From Symbiodinium sp. CCMP2592 (taxonomy: Eukaryota > Sar > Dinophyceae > Suessiales > Symbiodiniaceae): a stretch of 64,000 nucleotides of DNA. Positions within the stretch are counted from its first letter, which is position 1, and the number at the start of each line of letters is the position of its first letter. The position numbers were made by a program, and so were the translations under genes. Positions 2,336 to 35,488 of this stretch are shown piece by piece. The stretch covers positions 41,840 to 105,839 of the forward strand of contig CAJNDT010000975.1 in NCBI GenBank assembly GCA_905221615.1, written 5' to 3'. The notes below the pieces were generated by a model that had not been told where the DNA came from, made no database searches, and saw only the letters and a program-made list of their open reading frames with translations.

Positions 2336-2455
2336 CGGATTTAGGGGTTTCTATGGGGTTAAGGGGTTTGGGTAGGGTTTAGGGTTTATAGGGTTTATGG
2401 TTTGGGGTTATAGGGTTTAGCGGTTTAGGGGTTTAGGGGTTTAGGAGTTTAGGGC
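2336..2455 (+). repeat. Degenerate interstitial telomere-like TTTAGGG repeats
   Basis: About 120 bp consist of variants of TTTAGGG (TTTAGGGG, TTTATAGGG, TTTAGCGG, TTTGGGG, GGTTTATGG). TTTAGGG is the plant and dinoflagellate-type telomere unit. The copies are too irregular for a live telomere, so this is probably an internal relic or an insertion of telomeric sequence. Confidence 0.65.
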
Positions 2456-2540
<85 letters not shown>

Positions 2541-2545
2541 CAAGT
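2456..2545. repeat. (TAG)n microsatellite
   Basis: Thirty or so uninterrupted TAG/AGT triplets, decaying into variant triplets up to about 2600. Confidence 0.95.
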
Positions 2546-2687
2546 ACTAGTAGTATAGTCGTCGTAGTAGCAGTAGTGGTAGATAGTAGCAGTAGCAGAA
2601 CCACCCAGCACTCAGTGCTTTTCCAAATCCCATGCCATGAACTCCACACCCAAGCTAGAAACCCAGCACTTCGTGCTTGCAACCCAG

Positions 2688-2775
2688 CACCATGGTGCTT
2701 CTAGGGTCAAGGGGTTATGAAAACTACTAGTACTACTACTACTACTACTACTACTAGTACTAGTACTAGTACTAG

Positions 2776-2855
<80 letters not shown>

Positions 2856-2949
2856 ACGCTACTACTATTACGATTTCTATTGCTATTTTTATTTCTATTT
2901 CTATTGCTATTTCTATTGCTACTACTACGACTGCTACTACTACGACCAA

Positions 2950-3017
<68 letters not shown>

Positions 3018-3286
3018 GTACTGCTACTGCTACTGCTACTACTACTACTACTGCTACTACTCCTGCAGGTTCTCGCCAACCTGACAAGTGAGTTTTTGGT
3101 CTATAAGCTCGTCGTGCATTGCGCATGCAAGGAGAGCAAACTTTTTCTTCGGCGCGTAAAAGATGTACCGAGATGTACGATGTGTGGACGGTCCTGGTTA
3201 CAGACGTTGAAAGACCGCGGCGCAGTGTGGCACGCCTAAGTGCTGCCATGCTGCGCCGTGGTCTTTCGGGGTGGGGTGAAAGTAGG

Positions 3287-3339
<53 letters not shown>

Positions 3340-3426
3340 CAATAGTAGCAATAGAAATACTACAACTATCGGTAATAAAAAAAATTATGGTAGTAGCACT
3401 AGTTAGTATTGGTAGCAGTAAGAGTA

Positions 3427-3475
<49 letters not shown>

Positions 3476-3476
3476 C

Positions 3477-3533
<57 letters not shown>

Positions 3534-3670
3534 TTATAGTAGTAGTACTAGTAGTAGAAGTAGTAGAAGTAGTAGTAGTAGTGATAGCAGCAGTAGTAGT
3601 AGCAATAGAAATACTACTAGTATTGGTAATAATAATGGTAGTAGCAGTAGTTAGCATTGGCAGTAGTAAC

Positions 3671-3767
<97 letters not shown>

Positions 3768-3810
3768 ATAGTAGTTTTCATAACCCCTTGACCCTAGAAG
3801 CACCATGGTG
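2688..3810. repeat. Foldback element with 40-bp perfect terminal inverted repeats and ACT/AGT arms
   Basis: Positions 2688-2727 are the exact reverse complement of 3771-3810 (left arm begins CACCATGGTGCTTCTAGGGT). Inside, the left arm continues as (ACT)n at about 2724-3065 and the right arm as (AGT)n at about 3292-3345, 3428-3540 and 3668-3770, so pairing extends well past the 40 bp. The centre (about 3066-3290) is unique sequence of about 225 bp with no convincing gene. The poly-Ser, poly-Thr and poly-Leu open frames here are triplet repeats read in different phases. Confidence 0.8.
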
Positions 3811-4599
3811 TGGATTTTTCAGAAGAACCTCCTCTCGAGTCTCTCTCGCCTGCGGCCAAGGCCGCTGCCCTGCCGAGGCAACAAGACCAGCCGCGCCGCA
3901 AATCCGTCCCGAGGCAGAAAGGACCTGGGGCGGTCCAAGGGCTCGGGCAAGGCACCCAGCCTAGAGCACAATCAGGTGCCATCCAGGCGCTGAGCCCGGA
4001 AGAGCTTACCAAAGCCTTCCTTGTACACGACGACCAAATGAGTCTACTGCAACATCAGCTGTCATTGGTGTACAAACTTCCCCAAGACCATCAACTTTCG
4101 AAGGCATTAGTTGCGTCCGTGAAATCCTGGCAGGGAGGTTTGAAGAAGCTGCGCCAAGGAGAACCTCACCCCGAGGGATCGTGCTCAAATGCGGTCTCCC
4201 TAGTTCTCCTCCACGAACTGACCAAGGGCAACCCTCCAGAACAAGTGGACAAGACGGAGTACGGCAAGCTTCTGAAGGTGGTTGACTCCATGATCAACAT
4301 CACCACAGACAAGACCAAGCTGGCACAGGACATAGTGCACTGCTCAGCTAAGCCAAACAAGCTCAAAACGCACGTTATCCTTGATTTCAGGGTGGCCATC
4401 TACTCAGACCTTCTGCCATACCTCTCCCTTCTCGCCTCCCTCTTTGACTCCCACGACGGCTTTGAACGCCTGGGACGTAAGGCGCCGGGAGGACTGGCTC
4501 GCAAGGCTCGAGGCCGTCCCTGAGTTTGGCCTAGTTGAAGCACACAGTGCACTAACTCCCTCAGCACAGCTGATGTTCTGGTCAGTCTTGCACATTTGA
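3810..4599 (+). pseudogene. Gag-like or hypothetical protein fragment, frame-broken
   Basis: An open frame runs 3810-4523 without an ATG start; it begins directly at the right end of the foldback, where TTTTTCAG could be a splice acceptor. It reads EEPPLESLSPAAKAAALPRQ, then LTKAFLVHDDQMSLLQHQLS and a Leu/Lys-rich helical region. After about 4470 the more protein-like frame is a different one (EDWLARLEAVPEFGL), ending at 4599, so one frame change is likely. The helical region loosely resembles the N-terminus of the protein at 39911-41455, suggesting a shared gag-like family. No enzymatic domain was recognised. Upstream exons, if any, were lost to or hidden by the foldback. Confidence 0.45.
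4540..4573. repeat. ACA-loop double hairpin 1
   Basis: GCAC-ACA-GTGC (4540-4550) and TCAGC-ACA-GCTGA (4561-4573), 10 nt apart. Confidence 0.7.
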
Positions 4600-4747
4600 C
4601 TTTCGTACAGGGTGCCTAGCATAGCCATGCTGATTCTTTCAACAAAGTTCCAGCTGCGCATCAAAACGCAGGGGGCCCTTCGAGAGCAATTCAAACCGAT
4701 CTACTCAACTTCCTGAGCGCGCCAGCCTGGCTCGAGCCTCTAGCACT

Positions 4748-4999
4748 ATGGATCTCACACGTTTTGCGGACCTCCCGGGCCCTGATCAAGTCCCACACTT
4801 TCTGAATCTGGTACATCAGCTGGACGAGATTCTCAAGCGCAAGGCCTCGCAACTATACACAGACCCTGGCTCGGCGTCTTCTACCAGTACTCAGTCTGCT
4901 GAACGATGCACCCTGCCCTCTGGCAAGGCTCGTCCTCCTACACCGCCAGCTCCCAAACATCGACGAACTGACGAGGCTCCGGAACAGGACACTCAGTAA
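4748..4999 (+). CDS. Hypothetical protein, 83 residues
   Basis: Short ORF starting with ATG (MDLTRFADLPGPDQVPHFL) and ending in a Pro/Lys/Arg-rich tail (PPTPPAPKHRRTDEAPEQ). It may be a first exon or a broken piece of the neighbouring genes. It lies between double hairpins 1 and 2. No family was recognised. Confidence 0.35.
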   Translation: MDLTRFADLPGPDQVPHFLNLVHQLDEILKRKASQLYTDPGSASSTSTQSAERCTLPSGKARPPTPPAPKHRRTDEAPEQDTQ

Positions 5000-5133
5000 G
5001 CATCTTCAGTGAACTAGGCACTGCCGGTGGAGCCAGCTACCAGCGAGCAAAACTCATTGCCATGCGTTTTCCTGCATCTGCACTCAGCTGCTTTGCAACT
5101 AGGTCACAGGGCTCAAGCTACCAGTGGCAGGTA

Positions 5134-5166
5134 GCACACAGTGCAACACGGATTCGTCACAGACGA
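5134..5166. repeat. ACA-loop double hairpin 2
   Basis: GCAC-ACA-GTGC (5134-5144) and TCGTC-ACA-GACGA (5154-5166), 9 nt apart, 20 bp upstream of the kinase-like ATG at 5187. Confidence 0.75.
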
Positions 5167-5186
5167 TATCTCCCACTCACGCTGGG

Positions 5187-6407
5187 ATGTATCGTGCTCC
5201 CTATCCTGATGGAGTGCATGAGGCTCTTGGTCGGAGCCACATGCCTGGACTTCGACGACCAGTTGACCCCCAAGTGACTGCCGCCATCTCACCAGAGCTT
5301 TTAGGCGTGAAAATCGCAAAGGGATACGCCAGCGCGGTCTTCAATTCCAGTGCTGCAAACTTTGTGCTCAAGAAAGTCACGCGGCCGCAGGAAGAGTACA
5401 TGGCCAGACGAGAGTTTAGCAGATTATCGCGCCTCCCGCCGATCAATACCATCATCGAGGCTTTCTGGCAGCAAGGCCCAACACTGTTACTGCCACGACT
5501 GTACCCTGCCCATATCCCCTCCATGACAACGGACCATGTCGTCAATCTCGTTGCTGACATCCGGTCTGCCCTCAATGCAGTGCATTCCAGCCAATTGGTC
5601 CACGCGGACATCCACATGGGCAACATCATGGTTCGCTTTGACCCCCCCACCTATGTCTTAATCGATTTTGGAGGTACAGCGGGGGAAAGTGTCTATCCTC
5701 TTAGCTTGGGCTACGGCGCCCTCGGCCAGGGAGGAGTGCTTCATCGTCCTCCTCACGAGCTCATGGAGCGACCCACCAGGACCGTCAGAGGCGACTACTA
5801 CAGGCTCAGCAAGACGATCTCCGTCGAAGTCGTGGGCAACAAGTGCTGGCGCAACACTGCGTCGGGCTTCCCGATGCCCCCGAAACTCCCCAAACACCTG
5901 CGCGTCGAGCTGGCAGAATGGGAGAATCTCGCTGGCCTCACTCCACCCAAATGGCCAGAATCTGCCTTTCCCGGAGGAAGCTGGTACGAGACTGCCATCG
6001 ATCCCTCGATCACAGTGCAAGCCGGCTTGTACGACGAAACCGGCAATGTTCGTCTGGCCACCGCCGTTTTCTCCTACCCCAGGCAGCAAAAATCCAACGC
6101 ATCCGGGCTCTTTGGGCCAGAAGATCCAACACGGGCTTCTCTTGACTCCGGAAGCTGGGAGGAATCTGCCGCTTACGCTCGGTTCTTCCTAGCTTGCAGG
6201 CTCCGGACCATGGGCAGCCACATCCGGACTATGTACACAGAGGTACTGCCGTACCAAAAGTACAGCAACCAGGATGGCTACCTCATGCTGGAGAATCCCC
6301 TCGAGCATTCTCCGCCTCCACCACCTCCCCCGGCTGCCAGCTCGAACGAGCCAGCGCCCTCGACACCGGCTACTGAGCTGCAGGGCATTTGGGCGGAAAT
6401 GGACTAG
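5187..6407 (+). CDS. Protein-kinase-like protein
   Basis: Start chosen at the first ATG (MYRAPYPDGVHEAL); the frame is open further 5', back to about 5124. The fold signature of a eukaryotic-type protein kinase is visible: FVLKKV matches the VAIK lysine strand; LVHADIHMGNIMV (about 5595-5633) matches the catalytic loop with Asp and Asn in the HxDxxxxN arrangement; LIDFGG (about 5658-5675) matches DFG. The Arg of HRD is replaced by Ala, so it is an RD-lacking or atypical kinase, and the glycine-rich loop is not obvious. The C-terminus has a run of nine prolines followed by an acidic end. About 406 residues, within the range for a single kinase domain plus tail. Substrate unknown. Double hairpin 2 precedes it and hairpins 3 and 4 follow. 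Confidence 0.65.
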   Translation: MYRAPYPDGVHEALGRSHMPGLRRPVDPQVTAAISPELLGVKIAKGYASAVFNSSAANFVLKKVTRPQEEYMARREFSRLSRLPPINTIIEAFWQQGPTLLLPRLYPAHIPSMTTDHVVNLVADIRSALNAVHSSQLVHADIHMGNIMVRFDPPTYVLIDFGGTAGESVYPLSLGYGALGQGGVLHRPPHELMERPTRTVRGDYYRLSKTISVEVVGNKCWRNTASGFPMPPKLPKHLRVELAEWENLAGLTPPKWPESAFPGGSWYETAIDPSITVQAGLYDETGNVRLATAVFSYPRQQKSNASGLFGPEDPTRASLDSGSWEESAAYARFFLACRLRTMGSHIRTMYTEVLPYQKYSNQDGYLMLENPLEHSPPPPPPPAASSNEPAPSTPATELQGIWAEMD

Positions 6408-6419
6408 GCTTCAATCGAA

Positions 6420-6453
6420 GGACACAGTCCACCCAGCGGCATATGGCACAGCC
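6420..6453. repeat. ACA-loop double hairpin 3
   Basis: GGAC-ACA-GTCC (6420-6430) and GGC-ACA-GCC (6445-6453), 14 nt apart, 12 bp after the kinase-like stop codon. Confidence 0.75.
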
Positions 6454-6492
6454 TCCGCCACGCGGCTACTGTAACCATTTTGTCGCGGAATA

Positions 6493-6526
6493 GGACACAG
6501 TCCAAAACTACCTGAGTCACAGACTC
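6493..6526. repeat. ACA-loop double hairpin 4
   Basis: GGAC-ACA-GTCC (6493-6503) and GAGTC-ACA-GACTC (6514-6526), 10 nt apart; only 39 bp after hairpin pair 3. Confidence 0.8.
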
Positions 6527-6668
6527 CGTCCCAATGCCTACAGCACTGGCCTTAGCCCGAGAAAAACCTGAGCATATGTCTTGAGCGCAGTTGTCTGCAC
6601 TATCCAGCTACCGTTCGCTTGAGCTCGGCTTAGTATCGGTTACCGGCTTCCCACTTGCGCTAGTGCAC

Positions 6669-7628
6669 ATGGCTGGCGAAGATGATGGCCCAATCCAGGC
6701 CATTTCCTTTCCCGCTGCGATCTTCGCAGACTACATGGAGGACTACCTCACTCTTTCGGCGCTGAAGTTGTACTGTGAGGAGGCCCAAGTGTCCCTGCCG
6801 CCGGCAGCGGGAACATGGCCCTCCAATGACATCACGGCATGGGCACACAAAGCTCTCCCACCCCTACAGTGGCAACAATTCGAGAAATATCTCGATTCAA
6901 TGACTACCATGACCTGCTCCGAGGCAGAGGAAGGCTGCTTGGTCAATCCCATCCCACACGGAGGATTGCCACACATGGTACCCAAGGCAGAGCAGATAGC
7001 CAGCAGCTGCATCACTTCTCGCTGTCTCTCCATCTGGTCATCGGTCCGTCAGGTTCTGCAGCACCTACCTTTCGAAGCCCACGACAGATGGGAGTACGCT
7101 CCCCGTGCGGCCGGCTCTTCATGTGGCCAGCGATTTCGGGTAGGGGCCTTCTGCCGAGTTCTTCCTGGCCTGCTTAAGGAGACGGTTTCCCATCCCAACG
7201 TCACTCGACTCTTCAACGCCTTCGCGTACTCATGCCATCCAGAACACCAGTGGACTTCGCTCGAGGTCTTGGTAGATGTGCACTCCCCACCGCACAAAGA
7301 TGCTCGCAATGCTGCCTTGGGCACTTTGCTCATCGCGATTTCGATTTGCGACCAGGGCGGCATATGGATCGAAGACCCTGACGGCTGTGACTACCAGGAG
7401 ATCCCGCACCAGCAGGGGATGATCCGGGGAAGCTGCTTTGACCTACGTGGCCTCAGCCTCTTCTTCCGGGCGGATGCGCTGTGGCACGCAACTCTACCAT
7501 GAGAAACCTATACTCGAGTCGTTTTGGCGGCCTACACGGTAAGAGGAGTCTCTCGTTTCTCACCAACGCTGCAACAGCGCCTGACTGAGTTGGGTTTTCG
7601 CCTTCCGCTAGGCACCGCAGATGATTAG
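6669..7628 (+). pseudogene. 2-oxoglutarate/Fe(II) dioxygenase-like protein with internal in-frame TGA
   Basis: The first ATG is 6669 (MAGEDDGPIQAISFPAA) and the frame stops with TGA at 7500-7502. The end reads VDVHSPPHKDARNAALGT, then GGIWIEDPDG and LWHATLP. This matches the dioxygenase segment of the DIRS pol protein in this window (HVDAHNDPNS, GGLWLAD, PHATERWEGDRAVLVAF): HxD plus a distal His ligand. After the TGA the same frame stays open for 41 codons and reads ETYTRVVLAAYT, which aligns with the pol segment bearing the conserved Arg. So either the gene is inactivated by a single stop or the TGA is read through. About 319 residues in total. The N-terminal two-thirds match nothing I recognise. 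Confidence 0.55.
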
Positions 7629-7635
7629 CTCGAAT

Positions 7636-7666
7636 GGCACAGCCTCTTGAGCCGAGACACAGTCTC
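7636..7666. repeat. ACA-loop double hairpin 5
   Basis: GGC-ACA-GCC (7636-7644) and GAGAC-ACA-GTCTC (7654-7666), 9 nt apart, in the gap between the dioxygenase-like gene and the next ORF. Confidence 0.8.
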
Positions 7667-7807
7667 TGACCATCTCTGCTCGTAGTTTGAGGTTAACGCA
7701 GGAACACAAGCACATGTGGTTTCTGCACCGCTGTAACAACGTCACTGCAATTCTTCAGTCCTTCTAGGCTCTAAAGTTCGGCTCTGCCCTCCATTCGCTA
7801 GACTGCG

Positions 7808-8470
7808 ATGATGGAAGACGCCTTCGTCCAGCGAATCTTTCACTTCCTGACGCCGATGCTTCTAAGCCTCGACTTCTACTTGCAGTTGACGGACGTGGAC
7901 AGAACAGCCATCGATGGCTCGAGCAGCCAGTCCAGCCTCACAGGACCAGGCCTCACCCCCACCGAAGATGCGTTTCGTAGGGATAGCCTGACAGCAGCCA
8001 GAACGGGCCTCCTGAAACTTCTTCAAGAGTGCTTTAACCACTGGCCGGCCCTCTCCATCACCTACATCCCCCCACCTGCGCCAGACACACTGGACCCGAC
8101 GGGCATGCATCTTATCTACGAGGTCACGCAGCCGCGTCTAAAACAAGTCCGACGACTTGCCACTGTCAATCGAGTCTGGCATGACCTCATATCAGCCATG
8201 ATATCTGGTCAAGCCCGCATCAATACAGTGGAACTTCTGGTGGCGATGTCACGCTTGCGCAAGTCAGGCTCAGTGTCGGTTCGCGAAGGCCAGGACATTT
8301 TCTGCCTCCCGGTCTCGATGGCGTTCAGATTGCCGGTCGAGAACCTCACTTCACCTCTAGCTCGCACAGCTCCCGCCGCTGCCTACCGCGCCTCGGGCTT
8401 CAACGCCTGGCATGCGCTCCTCTTTGACAGCTATGATGCCCTGCAGAATGAGACCGAGCAACAGGACTAA
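7808..8470 (+). CDS. Hypothetical protein, paralogue 1 of 3
   Basis: 220 residues from ATG ATG at 7808. It shares an architecture with the next two ORFs: an N-terminal Leu-rich start (FLTPMLLSLDFYLQL), a middle segment (GMHLIYEVTQPRLKQV), then RRLATVNRVWHDLISAMI, then a segment with alternating hydrophobics. The L-x(4)-V-x-R-x-W pattern resembles the second half of an F-box, but the first half is not convincing, so no function is assigned. It is bracketed by ACA hairpins on the left; on the right only a single weak hairpin (AGCA-ACAG-TGCT, near 8509) is seen. Confidence 0.6.
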   Translation: MMEDAFVQRIFHFLTPMLLSLDFYLQLTDVDRTAIDGSSSQSSLTGPGLTPTEDAFRRDSLTAARTGLLKLLQECFNHWPALSITYIPPPAPDTLDPTGMHLIYEVTQPRLKQVRRLATVNRVWHDLISAMISGQARINTVELLVAMSRLRKSGSVSVREGQDIFCLPVSMAFRLPVENLTSPLARTAPAAAYRASGFNAWHALLFDSYDALQNETEQQD

Positions 8471-8652
8471 ATGTGCCATTAAGGAGTCTAACTTTTTGAA
8501 GCCAGCAACAGTGCTCTCGGCTTGAAAAACTGGGCATCCTCCGTACAAGTAGAAGTTCGTAGGGCGTGCGCTTTGAGTTGAGTTACTTCTCGGCACGCCC
8601 TTTGCCTGCCTGCCAGTTTCTGTCAGCTGGCTCTAAGAGACTCCTAACTGCC

Positions 8653-9165
8653 ATGGATGGGCTCTCCCTGCGCCACGCCATGAAACACCTACTACCAGGG
8701 GTACTCACTCTTGACTCTTACGACGCCTCGCCCTACCCCGCCTCCTACTGGAACGATCTGGACCTGCTTCAAGATGAAGCTCGTGCCACTCGTGATCGTC
8801 TACGGGATCTACTTCTACGTTGGGCTAGTACGGGCCCCTTCTCGCAGTACTCCATTATCGGCGACACACTCAGGATCGACCACAATGGAGTGCATGCTCA
8901 GCTCGGCATTGTCAATCTCAATCTGCTACAGGCTATACCGCTTGCGGCGGTCTGCCGTGCGTGGTACTCCGAAATCGCTCGTCTCATAGACGGCAAACCC
9001 TGGATTGGGGTGTGGAGAGCCTACATCCATCTGCGAAAGCAAGGAGCAGGAGTGTTCATTGAAGTTCTGCCGGATCAAGCTGGCACCCTTTCGAGAGAGG
9101 CCATCAGCGTCCACTATGAGCAGGTGCACTTCATTCCGACCTCTGTCTTGCGTCGCCCTCTTTAG
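8653..9165 (+). CDS. Hypothetical protein, paralogue 2 of 3
   Basis: 170 residues from ATG at 8653 (MDGLSLRHAMKHLLPGVLTL). The frame is open upstream to 8566 without ATG. The shared core reads GVHAQLGIVNLNLLQAIPLA followed by AVCRAWYSEIARLIDG, parallel to paralogues 1 and 3 (LLTAISMASVSSTWCAAV). Identity is low, so the duplication is old. An F-box-like relationship is possible but unproven. Confidence 0.6.
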   Translation: MDGLSLRHAMKHLLPGVLTLDSYDASPYPASYWNDLDLLQDEARATRDRLRDLLLRWASTGPFSQYSIIGDTLRIDHNGVHAQLGIVNLNLLQAIPLAAVCRAWYSEIARLIDGKPWIGVWRAYIHLRKQGAGVFIEVLPDQAGTLSREAISVHYEQVHFIPTSVLRRPL

Positions 9166-9172
9166 GTCAGAT

Positions 9173-9204
9173 GGCACAGCCTCCAGCCACTTGGTCACAG
9201 ACCA
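9173..9204. repeat. ACA-loop double hairpin 6
   Basis: GGC-ACA-GCC (9173-9181) and TGGTC-ACA-GACCA (9192-9204), 10 nt apart, 7 bp after the paralogue 2 stop codon. Confidence 0.8.
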
Positions 9205-9351
9205 TGAGACGCGCCGGTTTTTCTCCTTTTTTAAAAGGCAAATCCGATCAGCGTTGCGGCTCAGCGTTGCGGCTCACTGGTTCGTGCTCAAAATAGGATT
9301 CTCCGCAGTCATTTCTCGGCTTGCTCTCAGCTGCCCTGCCAACCATAGCGG

Positions 9352-9984
9352 ATGTCATCCTCTCTCTGCACCGAATCATGTCGCCGCGCTCTCTCCTTCA
9401 TCATTCCAGAAGTGGTCGTTGTGGACTTCTACTCGGACTACGGTTTGGACAGGGAAATGCTGGAAACTGAAATCGCTGCATATAGGCCCCCCAGCACTCT
9501 CGTTCCCATACTGCGGCTCAGGGACGCGATCCAGGAGCAAGCACGCCTCTGGGCCTCCCGCCGCTTATATGATGGCCTAGCTGTCTTCATGCAACGGTAC
9601 GTCGACACGGACTACGACCAGCAGGGCGTTCATGTCAGACTGGCGATACCGCAACCAGACTTGCTGACGGCCATTTCAATGGCGTCGGTTAGCAGCACCT
9701 GGTGCGCAGCAGTGCTCCCCCTGGTTCAGCATAAGCTCTTTGTAAGTCCTCACCGCACGGCCAGGGCAGCTATGTCTCTTGACCTACGTGTCATGGTCCA
9801 GTCTTTTGACACGCCCCAGTGGCACCTCGCGTCTGAAGAGCTCACCATCCACATTCAGCACAGCAAGCATGTCGTGGTGCAGAAGTTCCGGAACCCCCTC
9901 AACCCAGACGGGCCAGCGGCAACAATCAGCAGAGACGAAGAGGTTTACAGTGTTCTCTATGACCACTACTACAGTCTTTTCTGA
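9352..9984 (+). CDS. Hypothetical protein, paralogue 3 of 3
   Basis: 210 residues from ATG at 9352. Core QQGVHVRLAIPQPDLLTAIS followed by MASVSSTWCAAVLPLV aligns with the two ORFs upstream in the same order (hydrophobic strand, L-x-A-I, then a Val/Trp helix). It ends with an acidic, Tyr-rich tail. The three genes are co-directional, with gaps of about 180 bp each. Confidence 0.6.
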   Translation: MSSSLCTESCRRALSFIIPEVVVVDFYSDYGLDREMLETEIAAYRPPSTLVPILRLRDAIQEQARLWASRRLYDGLAVFMQRYVDTDYDQQGVHVRLAIPQPDLLTAISMASVSSTWCAAVLPLVQHKLFVSPHRTARAAMSLDLRVMVQSFDTPQWHLASEELTIHIQHSKHVVVQKFRNPLNPDGPAATISRDEEVYSVLYDHYYSLF

Positions 9985-10029
9985 GCACTTGTGAGCCACA
10001 GGGATGTCACCGACTCATGCAAGGAATGT

Positions 10030-10062
10030 GGCACAGCCTCCGATAAGGTGTGGCACAGCCAC
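10030..10062. repeat. ACA-loop double hairpin 7
   Basis: GGC-ACA-GCC (10030-10038) and GTGGC-ACA-GCCAC (10050-10062), 11 nt apart. A third ACA motif at about 10071 (AGTCACAGTCC) has lost pairing. Confidence 0.8.
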
Positions 10063-10425
10063 CCAACTAGTCACAGTCCGAGATGTGTTGCCCACCTGCC
10101 CTGAGAAATTGATCTTGCAGCATGCCTGAACCCAGCTACTGCTGCATCATCGTTTGCTCTATCCTGCAATCCGAGGCCCCAGCTACCACATGGCACAAGC
10201 AGTCCCTGCTCGAGTGCCCTCTGCTGATGTTCTTTGTCTCCAGTCGTCCTGCGTTGCCTGAGCTTCGTGCTTGGTCATAAGACTCTGAAATGCTGTGCAT
10301 GCATACCGCAGCTGTCAGTTCGAACTGTCGATACAGTAGGCAGCAGCAGAAGTACAGCAGCTTGCTCTAAAGACATGCCTTGCATGCAGAAGCTAAGACT
10401 TCGGAACAAACTGCGACTCCGCGAA
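10063..10425. other. Intergenic, no gene seen
   Basis: About 360 bp between hairpin pairs 7 and 8 with no coding signal I trust; it probably contains the 5' end of the glycosyltransferase gene. Confidence 0.4.
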
Positions 10426-10460
10426 GAGCACAGCTCACTTCCTGGCCGCGTGTCACAGAC
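10426..10460. repeat. ACA-loop double hairpin 8
   Basis: GAGC-ACA-GCTC (10426-10436) and GTC-ACA-GAC (10452-10460), 15 nt apart, 28 bp upstream of the glycosyltransferase ATG. Confidence 0.75.
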
Positions 10461-11515
10461 TCTGGCCCATCAGCTAAAGCTGAGACCATGGACACCCCTC
10501 CCAGTTTGGGACCCTTTCTGGTGCTCAGCAATAGCACTTTGCAGCACATGCTGCGGGGACACACGTACGGAGTGTTCCCACTGCTGACGGGACAGGTCTT
10601 AAGCTGTCCAGGCGCCGCCCTCAACATCTCTGCCGGCAGCGTCCCCTCCATCATGGAGCTCCTCCACTGGCAATTCGGCCTCTTTGGGCCGCACCAATTC
10701 AAGGCGGCGGTTCAGAGTCAGCCGGTGGCCTCCATTTTGGAGAGCCACCTTGACGGACAAATCAACGTTCGCTTCATTCCGCTGTCAAGAAGCTTGCGCC
10801 CGGAGAAGCAAATCAATTATGACTACCTGATAGACGGCAGGGTCCAATATGGTTTTGCGGACAAGAACCTGCCCAATCAGGAAATCATGGATTTGGCACA
10901 GATGCCTGGTGTAGGAGGGGTAGAATGGCTCTACAACTCCAAGAATCTCCACTTCCGCCCCGATGTCGCGGACATCGTCATCCCGGCACTTGTCACAAGA
11001 GCCATTGAGGAAATGCGCAACACCCCAGGACTGCCTGTTCTCGTGGTTGCTGGCTGGAATGCTCGCCAGCAGGACATGCATGTCGAAATGCTCGCTGCCC
11101 AGGCTCTGTCACAATGCCGAACTGTCCGAGATCTTTCGGAGGTAGCCATGCAGTACGGACATGGCCCCTGGGGGATGCGCTTCACGCATCTCCCAGAATG
11201 GGAGGCCGCCCCCGTCCCGGCCCTCCTCTTCCAGACCTACGTCCACGACGACAAGCCGGAGCCAGCCCAAGTTGCGGCCAAAATGTTTGCTGGCTTCACC
11301 CGCAAATTCTGTGATGATGGTATCCTTCGGGCTACCCTGCGGCAACTTGCCGGAAAGTACGGCTCCAATCTGCTGGATCGCCTCAGTCAACCTGCTCATA
11401 GAGCAGACGTGTTCCGCTACGTCTACCACTACCAGCACGGCGGCCTCTACGTCGATATCAAATGTGGCTTTGTGGTACCCTGGGAACAGGTACTGAAGCT
11501 TCTAGCAGCAGATTG

Positions 11516-11562
11516 GAGCACAGCTCACTCGTACGAAGGCAGGTGAAGTGGGTCACAGACCC
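11516..11562. repeat. ACA-loop double hairpin 9, inside the glycosyltransferase frame
   Basis: GAGC-ACA-GCTC (11516-11526) and GGGTC-ACA-GACCC (11550-11562), with the longest gap of the set, 23 nt. The 47 bp unit shifts the reading frame (47 is not a multiple of 3) and brings a TGA at 11544-11546. Confidence 0.8.
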
Positions 11563-12051
11563 TCCCCACCTGGCCAACTCCCAAAGGAGTTCATGGTCAT
11601 GGCCATTGGAGTCAAAGGAGATCACATCTTTCAAGGCATCATCTATGGCAAGCCCAGGCACCCTTTGATGAGGGAAGCCATACAGCACGCCTTCAGCCGT
11701 CAGGTTATGACAGCGAAGGCGAACTTGCAATACATGACCTTCTGCAAATTTCTCTGGCAGATCTTGAGTCGAGACCTTGGTCACTCCCCTCAAGCGGGCT
11801 GGAATGTTTCCGCCAAATTTGGCCCCATCTACCTGTTCTCGGAGCGTTGGGACAAGCGCGTGAAGAACAAAAAGTACGACAACGATGGCCACTACTTTGT
11901 GACAGCCAACAACACGACAGTCGCCTACACCAGGTGCTGGAAGTGGCTGAAGGGATTTCAGGGAGACCCCACCACCAAAGAACGAACCGATCGTATGCTG
12001 CAGAGCCAGCTACCCGACATCTCCCTGGAAATCCAGTCTGATAGACCCGAA

Positions 12052-12087
12052 GAGCACAGCTCACCACAGCCACTTAGGTCACAGACC
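12052..12087. repeat. ACA-loop double hairpin 10, in frame within coding sequence
   Basis: GAGC-ACA-GCTC (12052-12062) and GGTC-ACA-GACC (12077-12087), 14 nt apart. The unit is 36 bp, so it keeps the frame and would encode EHSSPQPLRSQT. Confidence 0.8.
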
Positions 12088-12869
12088 ACGGCAACCGCCA
12101 CATCAGCTCCTCCTCCTCCCACTCAGGAGGATATTGAAACCTATGTGGCAGACAGCATCCAGCACAACTCCTTTGCAGAGATCATGGCCACGGTCCGTGA
12201 AACCCACCACTATAACCAAGATCTTACAGAGCAGGATGTGCTGGAGCTCATCCCTCGTGGATTAGGGCAAGTGGAAGTTTCAGGAGACATGTGGTTATGC
12301 TGTTTGCACTGTCGGAAGCACAACCGGCAGATACAATTCAGTACTGGCCACGGCCTCAAAAACCACTTTGTCACGCAGAAGCATGACCCGGCACCCAGCG
12401 CCTTGTCGGCATCCCACACACCTCTTCCTCCCCCTCCCCCAAAGCTCCCACAGGAGATTCCTCTCCCCCCCAGCAGAACCAGGACCAAAGGAACAGACAC
12501 AGCAGCCGGCTTTGAGCCGCCGCCTTCACCCCCGTGCCCTTTCACTTCCTCAGTAGCTGAAAAGGCGGCTTTCAAGGCAAGCCAGGCGGAAACACCGAAG
12601 GCGGCCCCAGCGCTTCCGGCTAAGGCCCCACCGTCCATGGTGCCCACCCCGTGCCCTCAGCCTCCAAATTCCTCCTCGGCAGCACCTGCTCCCCCTCCGG
12701 CTATCCCTGTTTCCCCGATCCCTCCGCACCCTCCCAAGTCCGCCTCTTCCCCAGCCCCTGCCACCCAGGCCGCTCCGCGTTCCCACACGCCCCCTCCTCC
12801 TTCTTCCCGTCCCCCGTCGGCGTATGAGCCTCCGGAAACCAATGCGGAACCCGTCGGCCGGCTCCACAA

Positions 12870-13658
12870 CAGACAGTACGTTACACGCGGCAGGAGCTGG
12901 CTCAACTGCTGAGCTCCCAGTCCCACCAGGACTGGATTCGGGCCTTGGCTTCCATTAATATCCTGGTGGCTCCGGTCATTCTTGGCGGTCTCACCAACCA
13001 TGAGCAACAGACCCTTTGGTCTACCAGGATGGAAGCACTCCGCGAAGTTCCCCCGCTATTCTCTGCCATCAAGTCGGTAAGGACGCAAACAGGCCTCACA
13101 TGGGACACCGCCATGTCGGTGAGGCGGGTCCTCACCAGCGATGGGAAGGTCACTATAGCCACAGGCGCGGGAGGAGCCTATCGCGAGCTGGATGCCCCCA
13201 CAAAGGTGCATGGCCTTATCCATGCCTGCTTCAACAAGATGTGGGACGAAAAGGCCTTTCAGCAGCACTTTCCCTCGTGGGTCGAGTTCAACATGATCGC
13301 CACCACCATCGTGGCAGTCTACAATGAGACGGCCAAATCAGCCGGACTCCCAGCTCGTGTCTTCAGGGTTAAACCTGACAAAAATGCCTACTCCATCATG
13401 AAGATGCGGATCCAGCACGACAAGGGGCACGAGGAGGACAAGCGCATGGCCAAACTGGCTGCTGCTGCCCCTAACAAGCGCCCACAGATGCAGGAGGCTG
13501 ACACAGAGGGCAAGCGACAGCGCGATGGACCCTCCTCTTCTTCCTCGACCCAGTGGGCCAGGCAGGCACGCTCATCTCAAGAAGACGACTGGGACTGGTG
13601 GCAGCAGTGGTCCTGGCACAGTTACTCTCAGCAGTGGCCGAAAGGTCATGACCAGTGA
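12870..13658 (+). CDS. C-terminal part or separate ORF: Trp/Gln/Ser-rich-tailed protein
   Basis: The frame with RYTRQELAQLLSSQSHQDW (from about 12879) joins ALASINILVAPVILGGLTNH and runs to 13658. It overlaps the last codons of the preceding frame, so it is either the true C-terminus after a one-base frameshift or a second gene. The middle (DAPTKVHGLIHACFNKMWDE) is helical, followed by a charged region (MKMRIQHDKGHEEDKRMAKL) and a tail rich in Ser, Asp, Trp and Gln (DDWDWWQQWSWHSYSQQW). Such tails are seen on gag-like or nucleic-acid-binding proteins, but I recognise no domain. Confidence 0.5.
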   Translation, partial: QTVRYTRQELAQLLSSQSHQDWIRALASINILVAPVILGGLTNHEQQTLWSTRMEALREVPPLFSAIKSVRTQTGLTWDTAMSVRRVLTSDGKVTIATGAGGAYRELDAPTKVHGLIHACFNKMWDEKAFQQHFPSWVEFNMIATTIVAVYNETAKSAGLPARVFRVKPDKNAYSIMKMRIQHDKGHEEDKRMAKLAAAAPNKRPQMQEADTEGKRQRDGPSSSSSTQWARQARSSQEDDWDWWQQWSWHSYSQQWPKGHDQ

Positions 13659-13670
13659 GGGCAGAAATAT

Positions 13671-13703
13671 GTCACAGACTCTTTGATCCCTTATGTCACA
13701 GAC
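13671..13703. repeat. ACA-loop double hairpin 11
   Basis: GTC-ACA-GAC (13671-13679) and GTC-ACA-GAC (13695-13703), 15 nt apart, 12 bp after the preceding stop codon. This is the last member of the cluster. Confidence 0.65.
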
Positions 13704-14084
13704 TCAGGGAATTCGGCACTCTTCCGACGCTTAGCAATTCTCTTCGGAAGCCTGTGAACCGCGTGCTAACCTCGCTTAAAACAGCACTTCGCTGCTTCAG
13801 CGAGCTGCCCACGTCAAAGCTGCCCACAGCCTCACTCCACCGGAGTTGCTTTCAGGTACATGCGGTCATGGGCAAATGACCCTTACGGCCTTCTGTCTTC
13901 AACATGAGTAATCCGTGTGGGACGCCACAAGACGGATACTCCAGGTGTCGGCTTCGTCTAAGGTACGGCCTACTTGTTGTGACAGGTGCACAGATGGACG
14001 CGTCTGTTCACTCCAAGGTGTCGGAGGAGGAAGCTTTTGTAGCAGTAGTCTGTCAAGTTCGAGCTGATTAGAGAGGTATGAGCG
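13704..14084. other. Intergenic, no gene seen
   Basis: About 380 bp between the last ACA double hairpin and the first LINE-derived sequence. No coding or RNA signal was recognised. Confidence 0.4.
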
Positions 14085-14171
14085 ATGCATGCTAGAAGCA
14101 GTTTCACGAGTGCACGAGACCAAAGGCGCCCGCAAAGCGCAGAGCACGCTCGCGCAGCGTTCAATTGAAAA
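14085..14171 (+). mobile_element. 3' end remnant of an older LINE copy
   Basis: The sequence CGCAGCGTTCAATTGAAAA followed by TAG triplets repeats the 3' end of both full LINE copies (CACAGCGTTCAATTGAAAA at about 28941 and 35117). Similarity extends upstream in diverged form (AGTTTCAC, AGTGCAC, CGCCCGC, GCAGAGC). It lies head-to-tail directly before LINE copy 1, separated only by a short (TAG)n tract (14172-14194). Confidence 0.65.
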
Positions 14172-14482
14172 AATAGTAGTAGTAGTAACAGTAGCCGCCA
14201 CGGCTCAGACGTTTTGGAAGTTTTGCGCTGGCTTTCGAACAGGCTCTGGATTCCAACCTTGCGTTGCTAGAGGTCTCAAACAGGCCTCTCTCCGAACGAC
14301 TAAGGGTTGGTTCCTCACGCTGAGCCATGTGCCATGTGCCAACAGTTTGCGTCTGAGCCGCCAGGTCCCAATTCCTGGACCCAGTACCCTGTCTCAACAC
14401 GGGCCCACTGGGCAGGCGGTAGGGTTTCCACTAGCCGCGTGGTGGAGGGAGTCACTCGGCTTGCCTTGTGACGAAATAGCGG

Positions 14483-17400
14483 ATGGCGCTGCTCCCAGTG
14501 CACTCACAAAATTATTCTCAGATCAGGAAGAATTCTTTCAAGCATGTTTGCCGACAGGTGGCTGCAAGCCAGCAGCCTGTTTCTTACCGAGGTCAGGTTC
14601 TGACCCCAGCTCTTCTCAGGCGCATGGGCAACTGCCCACCGCAGCCGGGCTCCAAGCAGTCTTTTGCACCACGATCTCGGGCAGGACAGGCCACCAGGCC
14701 TCTCCGAGTACTGTCCTGGAATGCAGGCCATCTTGGCCAGCAACAATGGTCGGAAGTCAAATCATGGCTCTCCACTGAGGCACACCACACCTGTGATGTG
14801 TTCGTCCTGCAGGAGACCCACTGGCAGGCTACGGCCGAATTTAGTGTTGCAGGCTGGTACTGCATCTCGTCTGCTTCTGCTGCAGATCCGAAGGCCTCTA
14901 GACGAAAGCAACGCGGGGGCAAGGCCCATAAACAGTCACCTGCAGAGGCAATGCCTAATGACGATAAGATGACCCCACCCCGCAAGGAGCCCTCAACAAC
15001 TCGCGCGGACGGGGTTATGGTTTTCCTGTCCCCACACATACTGCCCAAAAGTGTGCGCTGGCAGGAACATGTCATAGGCAGAGCCCTGGAGGTCAGGTTT
15101 GACTGGCACGGGGCCCGCATCAACCTGGTTGCTGTGTATCAACACGTCTGGTCACCGGCCAAGCAGGTACAGACCAATCGTCAGGACAGAGCACATGTCC
15201 TGAAGGCTCTTAGCAGATGCGTGCAACGCGTGCCGCACAGGGACACGCTTATCCTGGCAGGAGATTTCAATAGTTCCTTGCAAAAGCAGCCTAGGCTGGT
15301 TGGTCCAGAGATCATTAGCCCACAGGAACCGAGATCTGATGAGCCAGAGCTTACCAACTTTCTGCTTAATCATCGCTTGGTTGCCCTCAACACGTGGAGG
15401 CCTCAGCCGCCACATACGTTTCAGCAAGGGGATACGCGCACTCAAATTGACTTTGTGCTTACGAGGGAGGTCTCTGCTGGAGGAGCTGCCAAAAACTCTA
15501 CGCCGCTGGCAGCTTTCCCGCTTGGAAGCTGGAAGAAAGGCGGGCACTTACCCATCAGTGCAGCTGTCAAACCAGTTCGGCACTGGAACCTGCCAGCCCC
15601 TCAGATACAGCAGCATCATTATGACACCGCTGCTCTGCAAGCGGCTGTCAGGGACAACACGCTGCCAGCTCAGCACATGCTCGAGTGGGTTACAGCACGA
15701 CTCACTCCGGACATGCAGCCGGCGTCATGGGATCGCCTCCTTGGCGAAGCCGCATCCAGGTTTTTCCCTAAGACCCCAGTGGCAATGCCAGATAGTCCGG
15801 AGACGAGCCTTGCCAGACGCATGTGGCGCTCGGCGCGTGGGAGCAATGCTCACCCCAGTGCGGAGCCATCGCCGGAGGATGAAGCCCGGCAGAGGCTGTG
15901 TGATCAGCATAAACAGGCGGTTAAGCAGGCTCGCAAGGACCAGACCAAACGGTTTCTTGCTGAGGTTGATCAGGCTCTGAGCCAGGGCGATCAGCACCTG
16001 GCATATCAGACTCTTAAGCACCTCCGGCCGTGGAAACCGGCTTTGAAAGCTCAGCTTAAGGACGCGCACGGCTTCCTGCTCAGTCCTGCAAACGAACTGG
16101 ATGAACTGGGGAAGTATGCAACTAAGGTCTTTGCGGCGCACCCACAGCTCCCGTCTGATTCGGGACTCCTGCCCCTATTGCCACAGACCAAGTTAGCAAA
16201 ACATATTGCCTCGATCAAGCCTAGCAAGGCAGTTCCGAAAGGAGCGGCACCGGCCGCAGCCTGGAAGCTCTGTGCTCAGCCGATCTCTGCGGCGCTTTCA
16301 CAATACTGTTCAAGCCTGACGCAGGACCAGTCACTGGACGACGATCTGACTCGCGCAGATCTCTGCTTAATCCCCAAACCGGGCAAGCCGGCTGACAAGC
16401 CTTCACAACTCAGGCCGCTGGGCATTCTTCGCCCGGATGCTAAAGGACTGGCGGGCACGGCCAAGGAGCTCCTGGAGCCTTTCACGCTGCCATACATGAA
16501 GCCTCTACCCCAGTTTGCATACCTCCCTGGGAGAGGTCTTTCGGATGCACAGAGCAGAGTGGTTCAGCATTTAAGGGAAGCAAGGCAGCTCTGTCGCAAT
16601 GCGAATCTCACCCGAGCGGATCAGCAGCGGGGACAATGTCCTGTAGGTCTCGTCGGCGGCATCACTTTCGCACTAGACCTGTCACAGGCATTCGACACTG
16701 TGTCCCGAAGTGAGATCTTGTCCCTGCTAGATGAGCTGGGCGCGGATCCCCCGCTTAAGAAACTCATACACGGCCTTCATCATCGATCTAAATACAGACT
16801 TCATTCTCAGGGGGCCTACAAGGACGTGGAAACTACCACTGGCATCAAACAAGGCTGCAAGTTGGCCCCCACGCTGTTTTCCGTGCTCACAGGCCGCCTC
16901 CTTCATAGACTGATAGACGCATTTGGCTGGGACAATGTCCGCAGATACTTTACAGGTTACGCGGACGACTTCACCATGCATCGCACCATCCGCAGCCAAG
17001 CAGACGTGGACGCTGCTCACAAGATGATCCTACAGCTTCTGTCGGAGGTGACGAAACTGGGATTACGCGTCAACCCGGCCAAATGTGCCATGCTAGTCAA
17101 GCTTAACGGCAGAGAGGCGGAAGCCGTGCTTCAGAAGCACACCTGCTGGCTGCCCGACTCGACGGGCACACTACAGCGGCATTGGCGACTGGGCAAGCAC
17201 AGATCCTTCCCTGCATACAAACTTGAGGCGCAAATCAAGTACCTGGGCATCCAAATTTCCTATGGGAACTTTGAAATGCAGACGCTGCGATTCCGCATAG
17301 CGGAGGCTGCCAAAAAGCTCCAGCAGGTCAAGCGATTCGTCTACAATCGCCGCACCGCGGGGCCAATGGCCAGGCTAAAGGTCTGGTTCACCACCGTTTG

Positions 17401-19423: not shown

Positions 19424-19520
19424 CTCTGACTCACCCTCAAGGGGTGAGTGCTGGCCCTCCAAACCTAGGAATGCGTGCACCAATAGGGTGCCTGTGCGTG
19501 GGAAGGCCGGACCCCACAAT
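19424..19520 (+). other. LINE copy 1 3' UTR, proximal part
   Basis: It begins with an imperfect inverted repeat (ACTCACC-CTCAAG-GGGTGAGT) just after the stop codon and is identical to the start of the copy 2 3' UTR. It ends exactly where the DIRS-like element begins (ACCCCACAAT at 19511-19520). Confidence 0.75.
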
Positions 19521-19710
19521 GAACTATCTCCGCGCGTGCACGGATGAGTTTTTATTTTCCCTGCAAAACAAATTTATTTCGCTTTCGAAATAAATTAGGG
19601 CATGTGTGTGACAGTTCTCATGTGAGCTATGTTAAGAGTGTTTCTCACGAAACATTTCTGCTCAAGGGAGAGGTGGGTGGGACCCCCAAAGTTTTGTAGA
19701 ATTTTTCGTC
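19521..19710 (+). repeat. DIRS-like split direct repeat A1
   Basis: 190 bp beginning GAACTATCTCCGCGCGTGCA and ending AATTTTTCGTC, repeated as A2 at 27785-27974. It contains AAATAAATT and a palindromic TTTCGCTTTCGAAA stretch. Confidence 0.95.
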
Positions 19711-27784: not shown

Positions 27785-27974
27785 GAACTATCTCCGCGCG
27801 TGCACGGATGAGTTTTTATTTTCCCTGCAAAACAAATTTATTTCGCTTTCGAAATAAATTAGGGCATGTGTGTGACAGTTCTCATGTGAGCTATGTTAAG
27901 AGTGTTTCTCACGAAACATTTCTGCTCAAGGGAGAGGTGGGTGGGACCCCCAAAGTTTTGTAGAATTTTTCGTC
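27785..27974 (+). repeat. DIRS-like split direct repeat A2
   Basis: 190 bp copy of A1. The B1-A2 joint (AAAATAA/GAACTATC) is the sequence expected at the circle junction of B2 and A1. Confidence 0.95.
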
Positions 27975-28278: not shown

Positions 28279-28966
28279 AGGTGGGCATGGCCCCCCCCAC
28301 GTCAAGGCCAAGCATGCTTTAGGCATGCGCAGGCTTACCCGCAGCTTTTCAGGCTGACCCAGCATGGCTGACACGATCCACAGCCCGGACCACAAAAGTG
28401 GTCGAACCGCCTCTCCCCTGGCTCCAGATTCACTAATGGGAGAGCCATCTGAGCCGCTTGGGGTCGACACTCGACGCCAGACATCCGGAGGCGGCAAGCA
28501 GCGGCAAGGCAGCGCCCTGCATGCCCTCTCCAACGCTGCAACCAATGGTGCCACTGGCAGACTAAGCAGTAAGTCGCGGAGGCCATGCCTGTTCTCACTT
28601 GCGTCTCTTCCGAGACAGACTGATGGCCCTTCTGCCGGATGCCGCCGCTGTCAGTCGGAAATCATGCCCTAGCCTGCTGCCGGTCGCGCTACTGCTGCTC
28701 TGCTGACAGCATACACAACGCGAATTCCGTTTCAATGTTCAGGTACATACAACAATCTGGAGCTTGATACCCTGCAGCCTGCAAACTCGCTTTGGCTGAT
28801 CACTGCCAGTTAGCTCAAAGCCTGTAGGCCGCAACCACTCAAAGGTCTTTTGACCTGGGCGGATCAGCTATAGGGTCTGAGTCAGTTTCACACCAAAGTG
28901 AGTGCACCGCGGCAATCGCCCGCTATGTGCAGAGCCCGCTCGCACAGCGTTCAATTGAATTGAAAA
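28279..28966 (+). other. LINE copy 1 3' UTR, distal part
   Basis: It is nearly identical to 34452-35134 of copy 2, with small differences (C8 against C9 near 28291, GGGAGAGCC against GGAAAAGCC near 28438). A 102-codon frame (28364-28672, MADTIHSPDHKSGRTASPL) is conserved in both copies, but as both copies are nearly identical throughout this is no evidence of coding. Confidence 0.7.
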
Positions 28967-29053
<87 letters not shown>

Positions 29054-29106
29054 GTGCTTGAACTTATCATTTTAGGCTGCATGTCTGCATTCGCATGACG
29101 CGTCTT
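28967..29106. repeat. (TAG)n tract between LINE copies, plus short unique spacer
   Basis: About 86 bp of pure TAG triplets (28967-29052) form the 3' tail of copy 1, followed by about 54 bp of unique sequence before copy 2 begins. Confidence 0.9.
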
Positions 29107-35134: not shown

Positions 35135-35304
35135 ATAGTAATAGTAGTAGTATTATAGTAGTAGTACTAGTAGTAGAAGTAGTAGAAGTAGTAGTAGTAG
35201 TAGTGATAGCAGTAGTAGTAGTAGCAATAGAAATACTACTAGTATTGGTAATAATAATAGTAGTAGCAGTAGTTAGCATTGGCAGTAGTAACAGTAGTAG
35301 TAGC

Positions 35305-35336
<32 letters not shown>

Positions 35337-35430: not shown

Positions 35431-35488
<58 letters not shown>

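Follow-up and report, generated by a model that had tools for sequence, protein, structure and literature searches.

Paired ACA-loop hairpins as putative sense-RNA recognition sites of a giant dinoflagellate LINE

We found 11 pairs of short hairpins with the triloop ACA in the window (the whole stretch of 64,000 nt analyzed here), all on the + strand and none on the − strand. They lie in a gene array that makes up the 3′ part of a giant APE-type non-LTR retrotransposon (LINE). The hairpins are near-invariant in copies of the element whose neighborhood has drifted, which argues that selection keeps them, and the pairs are probably signals that the element needs. Tentatively, we read each pair as a putative site at which the element's sense RNA is recognized through its twin hairpins.

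Hairpin pairs in the gene array

Both strands were scanned for stems of at least three Watson-Crick pairs around an ACA loop, with a gap of at most 30 nt between the two hairpins. The scan recovered all 11 pairs listed by an earlier, sequence-only reading of this stretch (Table 1), every one of them within 4540-13703 on the gene-sense strand. The rest of the window has no pairs, and two shorter LINEs within it have none in the scanned stretches 14195-19520 and 28985-35158. That reading held that counts no higher than in shuffled sequence would speak against it; the 11 observed pairs compare with a mean of 0.034 and a maximum of one in 1000 shuffles of the region 4400-13800 (whole window: mean 0.16, maximum 2, 200 shuffles). 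When all 64 triloops are compared in the region, every loop other than ACA yields at most one pair.

The pair closing the ACA loop is C-G throughout, which gives a core CACAG that occurs 39 times in the region. Taking these 39 sites without selection for stems, the two pairs adjoining the core are formed at 27 and 24 of them; outside the region they are formed at 24 and 30 of 102 sites. Loop centers are 20-25 nt apart in 10 of the 11 pairs; the one at 11516 is wider, at 35 nt. As had been claimed, the pairs lie mainly between genes: nine of 11 are intergenic (P = 2e-5, given an intergenic fraction of 20.5%) and 11 of 11 are sense, with those at 11516 and 12052 falling within coding sequence.

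The stems differ from pair to pair and stay complementary. In comparisons between pairs, both sides of the stem changed in 23 cells and a single side in none, and the covariation score is 0.602 vs 0.185 in shuffled data (reached in none of 500 shuffles); these counts are inflated, since the hairpins were chosen for pairing and the 22 hairpins comprise 13 distinct strings. A constant loop on varying, complementary stems is nevertheless beyond chance. Almost no G-U pairs occur (one-side changes are lacking between pairs, and copies show a single GC>GT), so the pairing could be at the DNA level. Folded thermodynamically, single pairs do not stand out (z-scores +0.45 to −2.17). Extending the stems outward from the inner 3-5 bp gives no significant excess across the 22 hairpins (56 vs 51.5 permuted, reached by 382 of 2000 permutations); a symmetric 2x2 internal loop scores 24 vs 15.2 (58 of 2000), mainly from the hairpins at 4540 and 7636.

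Table 1. Hairpin pairs and genes of the array (positions in the window; last column, copies spanning the site in which both hairpins are identical to the window copy)
Feature	Position	Strand	Description	Identical copies
ORF at left end of window copy	3810..4523	+	237 aa as listed	
Pair 1	4540..4573	+	GCACACAGTGC, TCAGCACAGCTGA	10/10
Small ORF	4748..4999	+	83 aa	
Pair 2	5134..5166	+	GCACACAGTGC, TCGTCACAGACGA; ends 21 nt ahead of next ATG	11/12; second hairpin absent from L073
Kinase-like gene	5187..6407	+	Pfam matches under curated cut-offs; homologue P0010	
Pair 3	6420..6453	+	GGACACAGTCC, GGCACAGCC; starts 13 nt past a stop	12/13; exception is an edge insertion in the alignment
Pair 4	6493..6526	+	GGACACAGTCC, GAGTCACAGACTC	11/13; loop ACT in L088 and L089
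Gene without Pfam match	6669..7502	+		
Pair 5	7636..7666	+	GGCACAGCC, GAGACACAGTCTC	15/15
Small gene of diverged paralogous trio	7808..8470	+		
Small gene of diverged paralogous trio	8653..9165	+		
Pair 6	9173..9204	+	GGCACAGCC, TGGTCACAGACCA; starts 8 nt past a stop	15/15
Small gene of diverged paralogous trio	9352..9984	+	Homologue P0011 (Symbiodinium sp. CCMP2592)	
Pair 7	10030..10062	+	GGCACAGCC, GTGGCACAGCCAC; third, imperfect core adjoins at 10072	13/15; L075 loop GCA, L085 edge insertion
Pair 8	10426..10460	+	GAGCACAGCTC, GTCACAGAC; ends 28 nt ahead of glycosyltransferase-like gene ATG	16/16
Glycosyltransferase-like coding region	10488..13658	+	Pfam match just under cut-off; frame interrupted in window copy	
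Pair 9, coding	11516..11562	+	GAGCACAGCTC, GGGTCACAGACCC	14/15
Pair 10, coding	12052..12087	+	GAGCACAGCTC, GGTCACAGACC	14/14
Pair 11	13671..13703	+	GTCACAGAC twice; starts 13 nt past a stop	13/14; L072 second hairpin GGCACAGCC (compensatory)
3′ end of retrotransposon with (TAG)n tail	14127..14194	+	Similar to 28917-28984 (82%) and 35091-35158 (65%)	

The host element and conservation across its copies

What had been described as a tandem gene array corresponds to the retrotransposon's accessory-gene part. The genome searched comprises 1.098 Gb in 5383 contigs (the window lies on C975); this nuclear genome is large and LINE-rich, and LINEs occur within the window itself. The element runs from an APE endonuclease through RT and UCH to the accessory genes and a (TAG)n tail. 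In the copy on contig C2 (L094), open frames upstream of the array match Exo_endo_phos (8.8e-07), RVT_1 (1.7e-22), and UCH. The tail is seen directly in the window, C2, and C81 copies and by alignment in the C38 copy. Homology of the window copy to other copies starts at 3811, and the C2 and C81 copies share >4 kb further upstream, as is expected of APE-type LINEs, whose copies are dispersed and often 5′ truncated. The pattern of pair 6 occurs at 168 places genome-wide (79 + 89; control, 0). Within the RT reading frame, the two copies read there (L091 and L094) each have two further sense pairs. In all, 13 pairs were counted on the element's sense strand (11 in the window, two in the C2 and C81 copies), four of them coding: two in the array and two in the RT ORF region.

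Among the accessory genes, the one at 6669..7502 may resemble the 2OG-oxygenase-like domains of dinoflagellate retroelements. The AlphaFold model of the small-gene trio is unusable (mean pLDDT 34.6), and a search of protein P0001 against viral contigs gave no match.

To measure conservation, 16 copies of the element were each compared with the window copy. The copies had been found with the second hairpin of pair 7 as search string, so values are also given without that hairpin. Of 306 hairpin cells, 298 match the window exactly (284 of 291 without it); for same-length control windows in nearby noncoding sequence the count is 1082 of 3415. Position by position, noncoding hairpins differ at 20 of 2675 sites (19 of 2480) and their noncoding neighbors at 542 of 4901. 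The coding hairpins behave likewise: third codon positions within them differ at 0 of 64 and 1 of 173 sites (total 1 of 237), against a background of 779 of 4799 and 1031 of 5536 (16-19%). At five sites both hairpins are identical in every copy spanning the site, and at the other six one or two copies deviate. The hairpins of pairs 7 and 8 are kept in divergent copies despite differing spacers. Some other noncoding stretches match the hairpins in conservation: among the 160 conserved 11-mers, 62 have <6 nt in common with a hairpin.

The earlier proposal that the hairpins are functional agrees with their being intact in diverged copies. Its view that structure rather than sequence is preserved stands for the comparison between pairs of one element; between copies of the same pair, the sequence itself is near-invariant, with a single compensatory change.

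Possible roles of the pairs

The pairs are restricted to the sense strand, occupy intergenic sites as well as coding sites in the RT and glycosyltransferase-like regions, and are constrained; on these grounds we favor sites on the sense RNA. An RNA-binding protein, whether the element's or the host's, would bind two C-ACA-G triloop hairpins ~20-25 nt apart. With a site roughly every kilobase, it could mark the long polycistronic RNA or assemble it into a particle for reverse transcription, dispersed packaging signals being the model for such action; the twin hairpins may also protect the RNA or serve its translation. It is possible, and we say so with considerable reserve, that the pairs form a code, with about one twin to each kilobase, and that a single RNA-binding protein reads it by sensing loop and pairing, not the sequence of the stems; a non-LTR retrotransposon would then have a dispersed signal system of the packaging type. 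If true, this would explain how a LINE RNA of at least 14 kb, accessory genes included, stays in one particle.

The intergenic bias fits expression signals equally well. The pairs might mark cistron ends and starts of a polycistronic RNA for cleavage, polyadenylation, trans-splicing, or translation re-initiation: five begin 8-46 nt past a stop and two finish 21-28 nt ahead of an ATG, and passages of a study of Mimiviridae describe hairpin-guided 3′ processing (PMC4402537). However, the four coding pairs sit where cleavage or termination would destroy the message, which counts against this explanation; the stretch of pair 9, where the reading frame of the window copy is interrupted, is read through in uninterrupted homologues; and the distances to stops and starts are not fixed. 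We consider this role rather unlikely.

Action as single-stranded or supercoiled DNA, for example at promoters or sites of target-primed reverse transcription, is improbable. The strict Watson-Crick stems would suit it, as would loop centers about two helical turns apart, and DNA hairpins whose stems combine conserved and free bases serve as promoters in phage N4, as the passages of PMC4496689 have it. Against this, the pairs occur in coding and noncoding parts alike and on the sense strand only, as sense RNA needs. Stems of 3-5 bp also extrude poorly from DNA.

Several pairs contain related sequences (GAGCACAGCTCAC and GGCACAGCCTCC, three times each), as might be expected if mobile micro-elements had inserted repeatedly into the array, a possibility raised by the sequence-only reading. 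This is very improbable: apart from one local loss (L073), pair positions coincide among the array copies spanning them, the hairpins are far more constrained than their neighbors, pair 9 is homologous, conserved coding sequence, and the window elsewhere is without pairs. Chance or an artefact of composition, to which the commonness of CACAG in the region might point, is contradicted by the shuffles, the stem covariation, and the constraint across copies, and we give it practically no credence.

Several known classes were also considered. An intron or introner at pair 9 was rejected, since homologues read through. We take CACAGTG to be a RAG-type signal motif; this candidate was dropped, the motif being confined to hairpins with the GCAC stem, as were box H/ACA and iron-responsive elements, whose loop and stem do not fit. 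No Rfam 15 family matches the window at gathering score, and bacterial-type terminators are not enriched in the region (three found vs 6.4 expected). In prokaryote genome contigs, the pattern GTCTGTGACN{6,16}GCTGTGCNNAAG occurs at seven places, and none of these showed hairpin pairs with stems reaching 3 bp. Phage contigs carry twin TGT-loop hairpins directly ahead of start codons.

Comparison with known systems

A limited literature search found no description of such hairpin pairs, and to our knowledge work on cis-acting RNA structures of LINEs has dealt mostly with those at the element ends. Short hairpin pairs, strictly paired and strongly conserved, in both coding and noncoding sequence of a giant LINE would offer a new handle on RNA recognition, packaging, or expression, and would bear on how dinoflagellate retrotransposons carry many accessory genes. 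Being short, many, and defined by sequence, the sites are directly testable.

The element shares with APE-type LINEs its endonuclease and RT domains, a simple-repeat 3′ tail, and many dispersed, diverged copies; it differs in that the RT ORF and the tail are separated by ~10 kb of accessory genes, all co-directional, and in that 13 twin hairpins could be counted along its sense strand. Introner elements of Amoebophrya, in the passages of PMC7789003, are likewise inverted repeats in dinoflagellate nuclear DNA, of 8-20 nt, that join two intron ends, whereas each hairpin here pairs with itself and implies no intron. The double-hairpin elements of fungal mitochondria also consist of two adjacent hairpins, mostly intergenic; as the passages of PMC10085805 describe them, they are GC-rich and potentially mobile alone, whereas the pairs here are an integral part of a nuclear retrotransposon, neither organellar nor mobile on their own. 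The N4 virion RNA polymerase promoter hairpins are small, their loop bases being conserved and their stem bases partly free; unlike our pairs, they are phage DNA promoters at three mapped sites, and the passages of PMC4496689 report no twin arrangement. Polyadenylation signals of Mimiviridae, according to passages of PMC4402537, resemble the pairs as hairpins defined by pairing near gene ends; the pairs here are twin micro-hairpins with a fixed ACA loop that also occur inside genes, and with four of 13 in coding sequence a transcript-terminating role of the Mimiviridae kind does not fit. In ssRNA viruses and HBV, dispersed packaging signals are described as many hairpins with a common loop motif along one RNA (PMC3593212, PMC7793301, and PMC7612645). 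The 11 array and two RT ORF pairs would match this at the sequence level in their common loop motif; they differ in being strictly twinned, with a fixed loop, in a LINE.

Paired ACA hairpins in the window

All 11 pairs of hairpins with an ACA loop that the sequence-only reading had placed in the window were found as described. Scanning both strands of the window for stems of at least three Watson-Crick pairs around ACA, with gaps of at most 30 nt, returned 11 pairs, every one of them on the + strand and within 4540-13703; the - strand had none. The expected excess over shuffled sequence was borne out: 1000 dinucleotide-preserving shuffles of 4400-13800 gave a mean of 0.034 pairs and a maximum of 1, and no triloop of the 64 other than ACA exceeded a single pair there. 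CACAG is the core of all 22 hairpins. With no selection for a stem, the two pairs adjoining this core form at 27 and 24 of the 39 CACAG sites in the region, and at 24 and 30 of the 102 sites outside it, which is approximately chance. Ten of the 11 pairs have their loop centers 20-25 nt apart; in pair 9 the distance is 35 nt. The pairs lie mainly between genes, as had been claimed (nine of 11), yet pairs 9 and 10 are coding.

The stems had also been said to differ while staying complementary, and an alignment of the 11 pairs agrees: 89.9% of the 99 stem cells are paired, with 23 cells altered on both sides and none on one side. Covariation scores 0.602; shuffled data give 0.185, with none of 500 shuffles reaching the observed value, and sliding the alignment gives no more than 0.204. 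Taken alone this comparison is biased, since the hairpins were picked because they were paired and the 22 comprise just 13 distinct strings. The mismatches that terminate stems are T-T (10), A-A (7), C-T or T-C (4), and G-A (1), and never G-T.

The gene array and its parent element

The array genes are co-directional. An ORF and a small ORF are followed by a kinase-like gene whose Pfam match is below cut-off, a gene with no match, a trio of diverged paralogues, and, with a Pfam match just below cut-off, a glycosyltransferase-like gene. Homologues were few in searches that each scored the ~8000 candidates with most words in common: the glycosyltransferase-like ORF had six, and the kinase-like gene and the trio had one each, that of the trio being named for Symbiodinium sp. 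CCMP2592. For both the glycosyltransferase-like homologue P0007 and the kinase-like homologue P0010, the longest contig is given as 37768 bases, which suggests that the two genes may travel together. The glycosyltransferase-like frame of the window copy is apparently broken near pair 9 (11516-11562), as are those of homologues P0005 and P0006 at about the same position; in the other homologues it is uninterrupted.

Across the 1.098-Gb genome (the window being C975:41840-105839), GTGGCACAGCCAC occurs at 130 + 130 places versus 28 + 18 for the reversed pattern, and the pair-6 pattern GGCACAGCCTCN{4,30}GTCACAGAC at 79 + 89 places versus 0 + 0 for the control. The array is present in 16 of 20 stretches taken around GTGGCACAGCCAC places, these copies being 76.9%-96.2% identical to the window (3811-14100, as far as each aligns). 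Homology of the window copy to the others begins at 3811; the mutual match of the copies on contigs C2 and C81 runs >4 kb upstream of the equivalent point. Open frames upstream of it (copy L094) match Exo_endo_phos, RVT_1, and UCH, and the 3′ region, (TAG)n tail included, is common to the compared copies. Because of these upstream domain frames and the downstream tail, we conclude from sequence comparison that the array represents the 3′ part of a giant APE-type LINE, whose window copy is without the 5′ part. Two further pairs, TCAGCACAGCTGA + GGCACAGCC and GGCACAGCC + CGAGCACAGCTCG, lie in the RT ORF region upstream and are present in both copies read there (L091 and L094). No ACA pairs were found in the window's two shorter LINEs (14195-19520 and 28985-35158 scanned).

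A 1646-aa LINE ORF occurs twice in the window (14483-19423 and 29414-34354), the first with endonuclease, RT, and ubiquitin hydrolase (UCH) matches; the two tails similar to the array's are read as belonging to these UCH-type LINEs. The first shorter LINE is apparently interrupted by an element whose direct repeats are identical and 190 bp long. On C81 (200513/216891, both read as giant-LINE copies) and on contig C189 (197056/213606, listed positions only), two places with matching orientation are separated by ~16.4-16.6 kb, suggestive of a tandem arrangement or of insertion into each other's tail. Elsewhere, the window holds tandem 40-nt units with inverted repeats of the TTAGTTAAACGGTTTAACTAAAA type, and long triplet-type microsatellite arrays, partly opposite in orientation.

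Features of the window, its copies, and viral contigs
Feature	Location	Detail
Trio genes	7808..8470, 8653..9165, 9352..9984	+ strand
Other conserved noncoding stretches	4629-4654, 4721-4738, 7568-7584	Conservation across copies equal to the hairpins'
Other conserved noncoding stretches	4662-4673, 5106-5121, 10305-10318	
Exception among copies	L073	One hairpin lost
Exceptions among copies	L088, L085	Two alignment-edge insertions next to intact hairpin
Exceptions among copies	L088, L089	Loop ACT
Exception among copies	L075	Loop GCA
Exception among copies	L085	Outermost GC to GT
Exception among copies	L072	Double change TA to GC, pairing kept
(TAG)n tail	Window 14127-14194; C2, C81; C38	C2 and C81 as printed; C38 by alignment
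Similar tails	Window 28917-28984, 35091-35158	
Direct repeats	19521-19710, 27785-27974	190 bp
40-nt units	36418-36617	Tandem
Microsatellite array	2429-3800	Adjoins giant-LINE copy start
Microsatellite array	35100-35900	Adjoins a LINE tail
TGT-loop hairpins	L001:11061, L005, L008:222, L013, L023, L028:629	Two in tandem
TGT-loop hairpins	L021:2456	Three in tandem
TGT-loop hairpins	L025 group (L025, L026, L027, L029)	Two in tandem; ATG inside longer listed ORF
TGT-loop hairpins	L061:10067	Two in tandem; identified partly by eye
Listed beside the TGT/TGC hairpin phage loci	L048:24927	

Conservation among copies

Lifted from the window onto the 16 copies by pairwise alignment, the hairpins are identical to the window in 298 of 306 hairpin-by-copy cells, which are non-independent given that the copies are interrelated; for overlapping windows of the same length in neighboring noncoding DNA, identity holds in 1082 of 3415 cases. 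The copies were found via the hairpin at 10050, which is conserved by construction; without it, 284 of 291 cells are identical. Noncoding hairpin positions differ at 20 of 2675 (13 of these in the hairpin lost from L073), or 19 of 2480 without 10050, against a noncoding background of 542 of 4901 within 15 nt of hairpins and 2763 of 19363 in the remaining array. Coding hairpin positions differ at 1 of 679 versus 153 of 1629 nearby. In the coding hairpins, 0 of 64 and 1 of 173 third codon positions differ, against 779 of 4799 and 1031 of 5536 in the reading frames that contain them; so few third-position differences indicate, as judged from the aligned copies, that the coding pairs are constrained beyond the needs of the protein.

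The hairpins are not the sole conserved noncoding pieces of the array. Among 1882 noncoding 11-mers examined, 160 are the same in 90% or more of the copies; 98 of them overlap a hairpin by at least 6 nt, and of the remaining 62 some adjoin hairpins and others fall in the conserved noncoding stretches of the table.

Nine further places were picked for differing spacers in pair 6, so that pair 6 was a selection criterion and pairs 7 and 8 were not. Pair 7 is present in five and pair 8 in six, the inner hairpins kept and the spacers different; within the stretch read, they are absent from four and three, respectively. Copy L099 has the pair-1 hairpins at the same 10-nt spacing with a different spacer sequence, and in L085 a GCGCACAGCGC hairpin stands between trio genes one and two, a place with no perfect pair in the window.

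Proposed role and comparison with phage hairpins

The pairs are non-random, twinned, confined to a single strand, strongly constrained, and part of one retrotransposon. They may work at the DNA level, the main point for which is that G-U pairs are scarce. They may also be expression signals, but cleavage or termination at the coding pairs would do harm. For this reason, and because a single element carries all pairs in sense orientation, we favor candidate binding sites dispersed along the element's genomic RNA. A putative RNA-binding protein would read them, requiring the ACA loop, the C-G closing pair, and a paired stem, and would need the hairpin twice, about two turns apart.

When viral contigs were searched with the same strings as the window's hairpins, nine contigs or groups of contigs were found to have tandem TGT-loop hairpins on the gene-sense strand, 12-37 nt upstream of an ATG; many other matches of these patterns fall in coding sequence and look like chance. 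Several downstream ORFs resemble genes for scaffold, coat, or tail proteins, by our own reading except where relatives are annotated. Cyanophage KBS-S-2A has TGC-loop twin hairpins upstream of its coat gene, and a similar pair was seen by eye in S-H1; Pseudomonas phage JG054 has no such hairpins at the corresponding place, and Rfam gave no match in the eight of these phage loci tested. The phage hairpins, possibly an undescribed phage mRNA leader motif, are opposite in orientation to those of the window and are treated as a separate motif.
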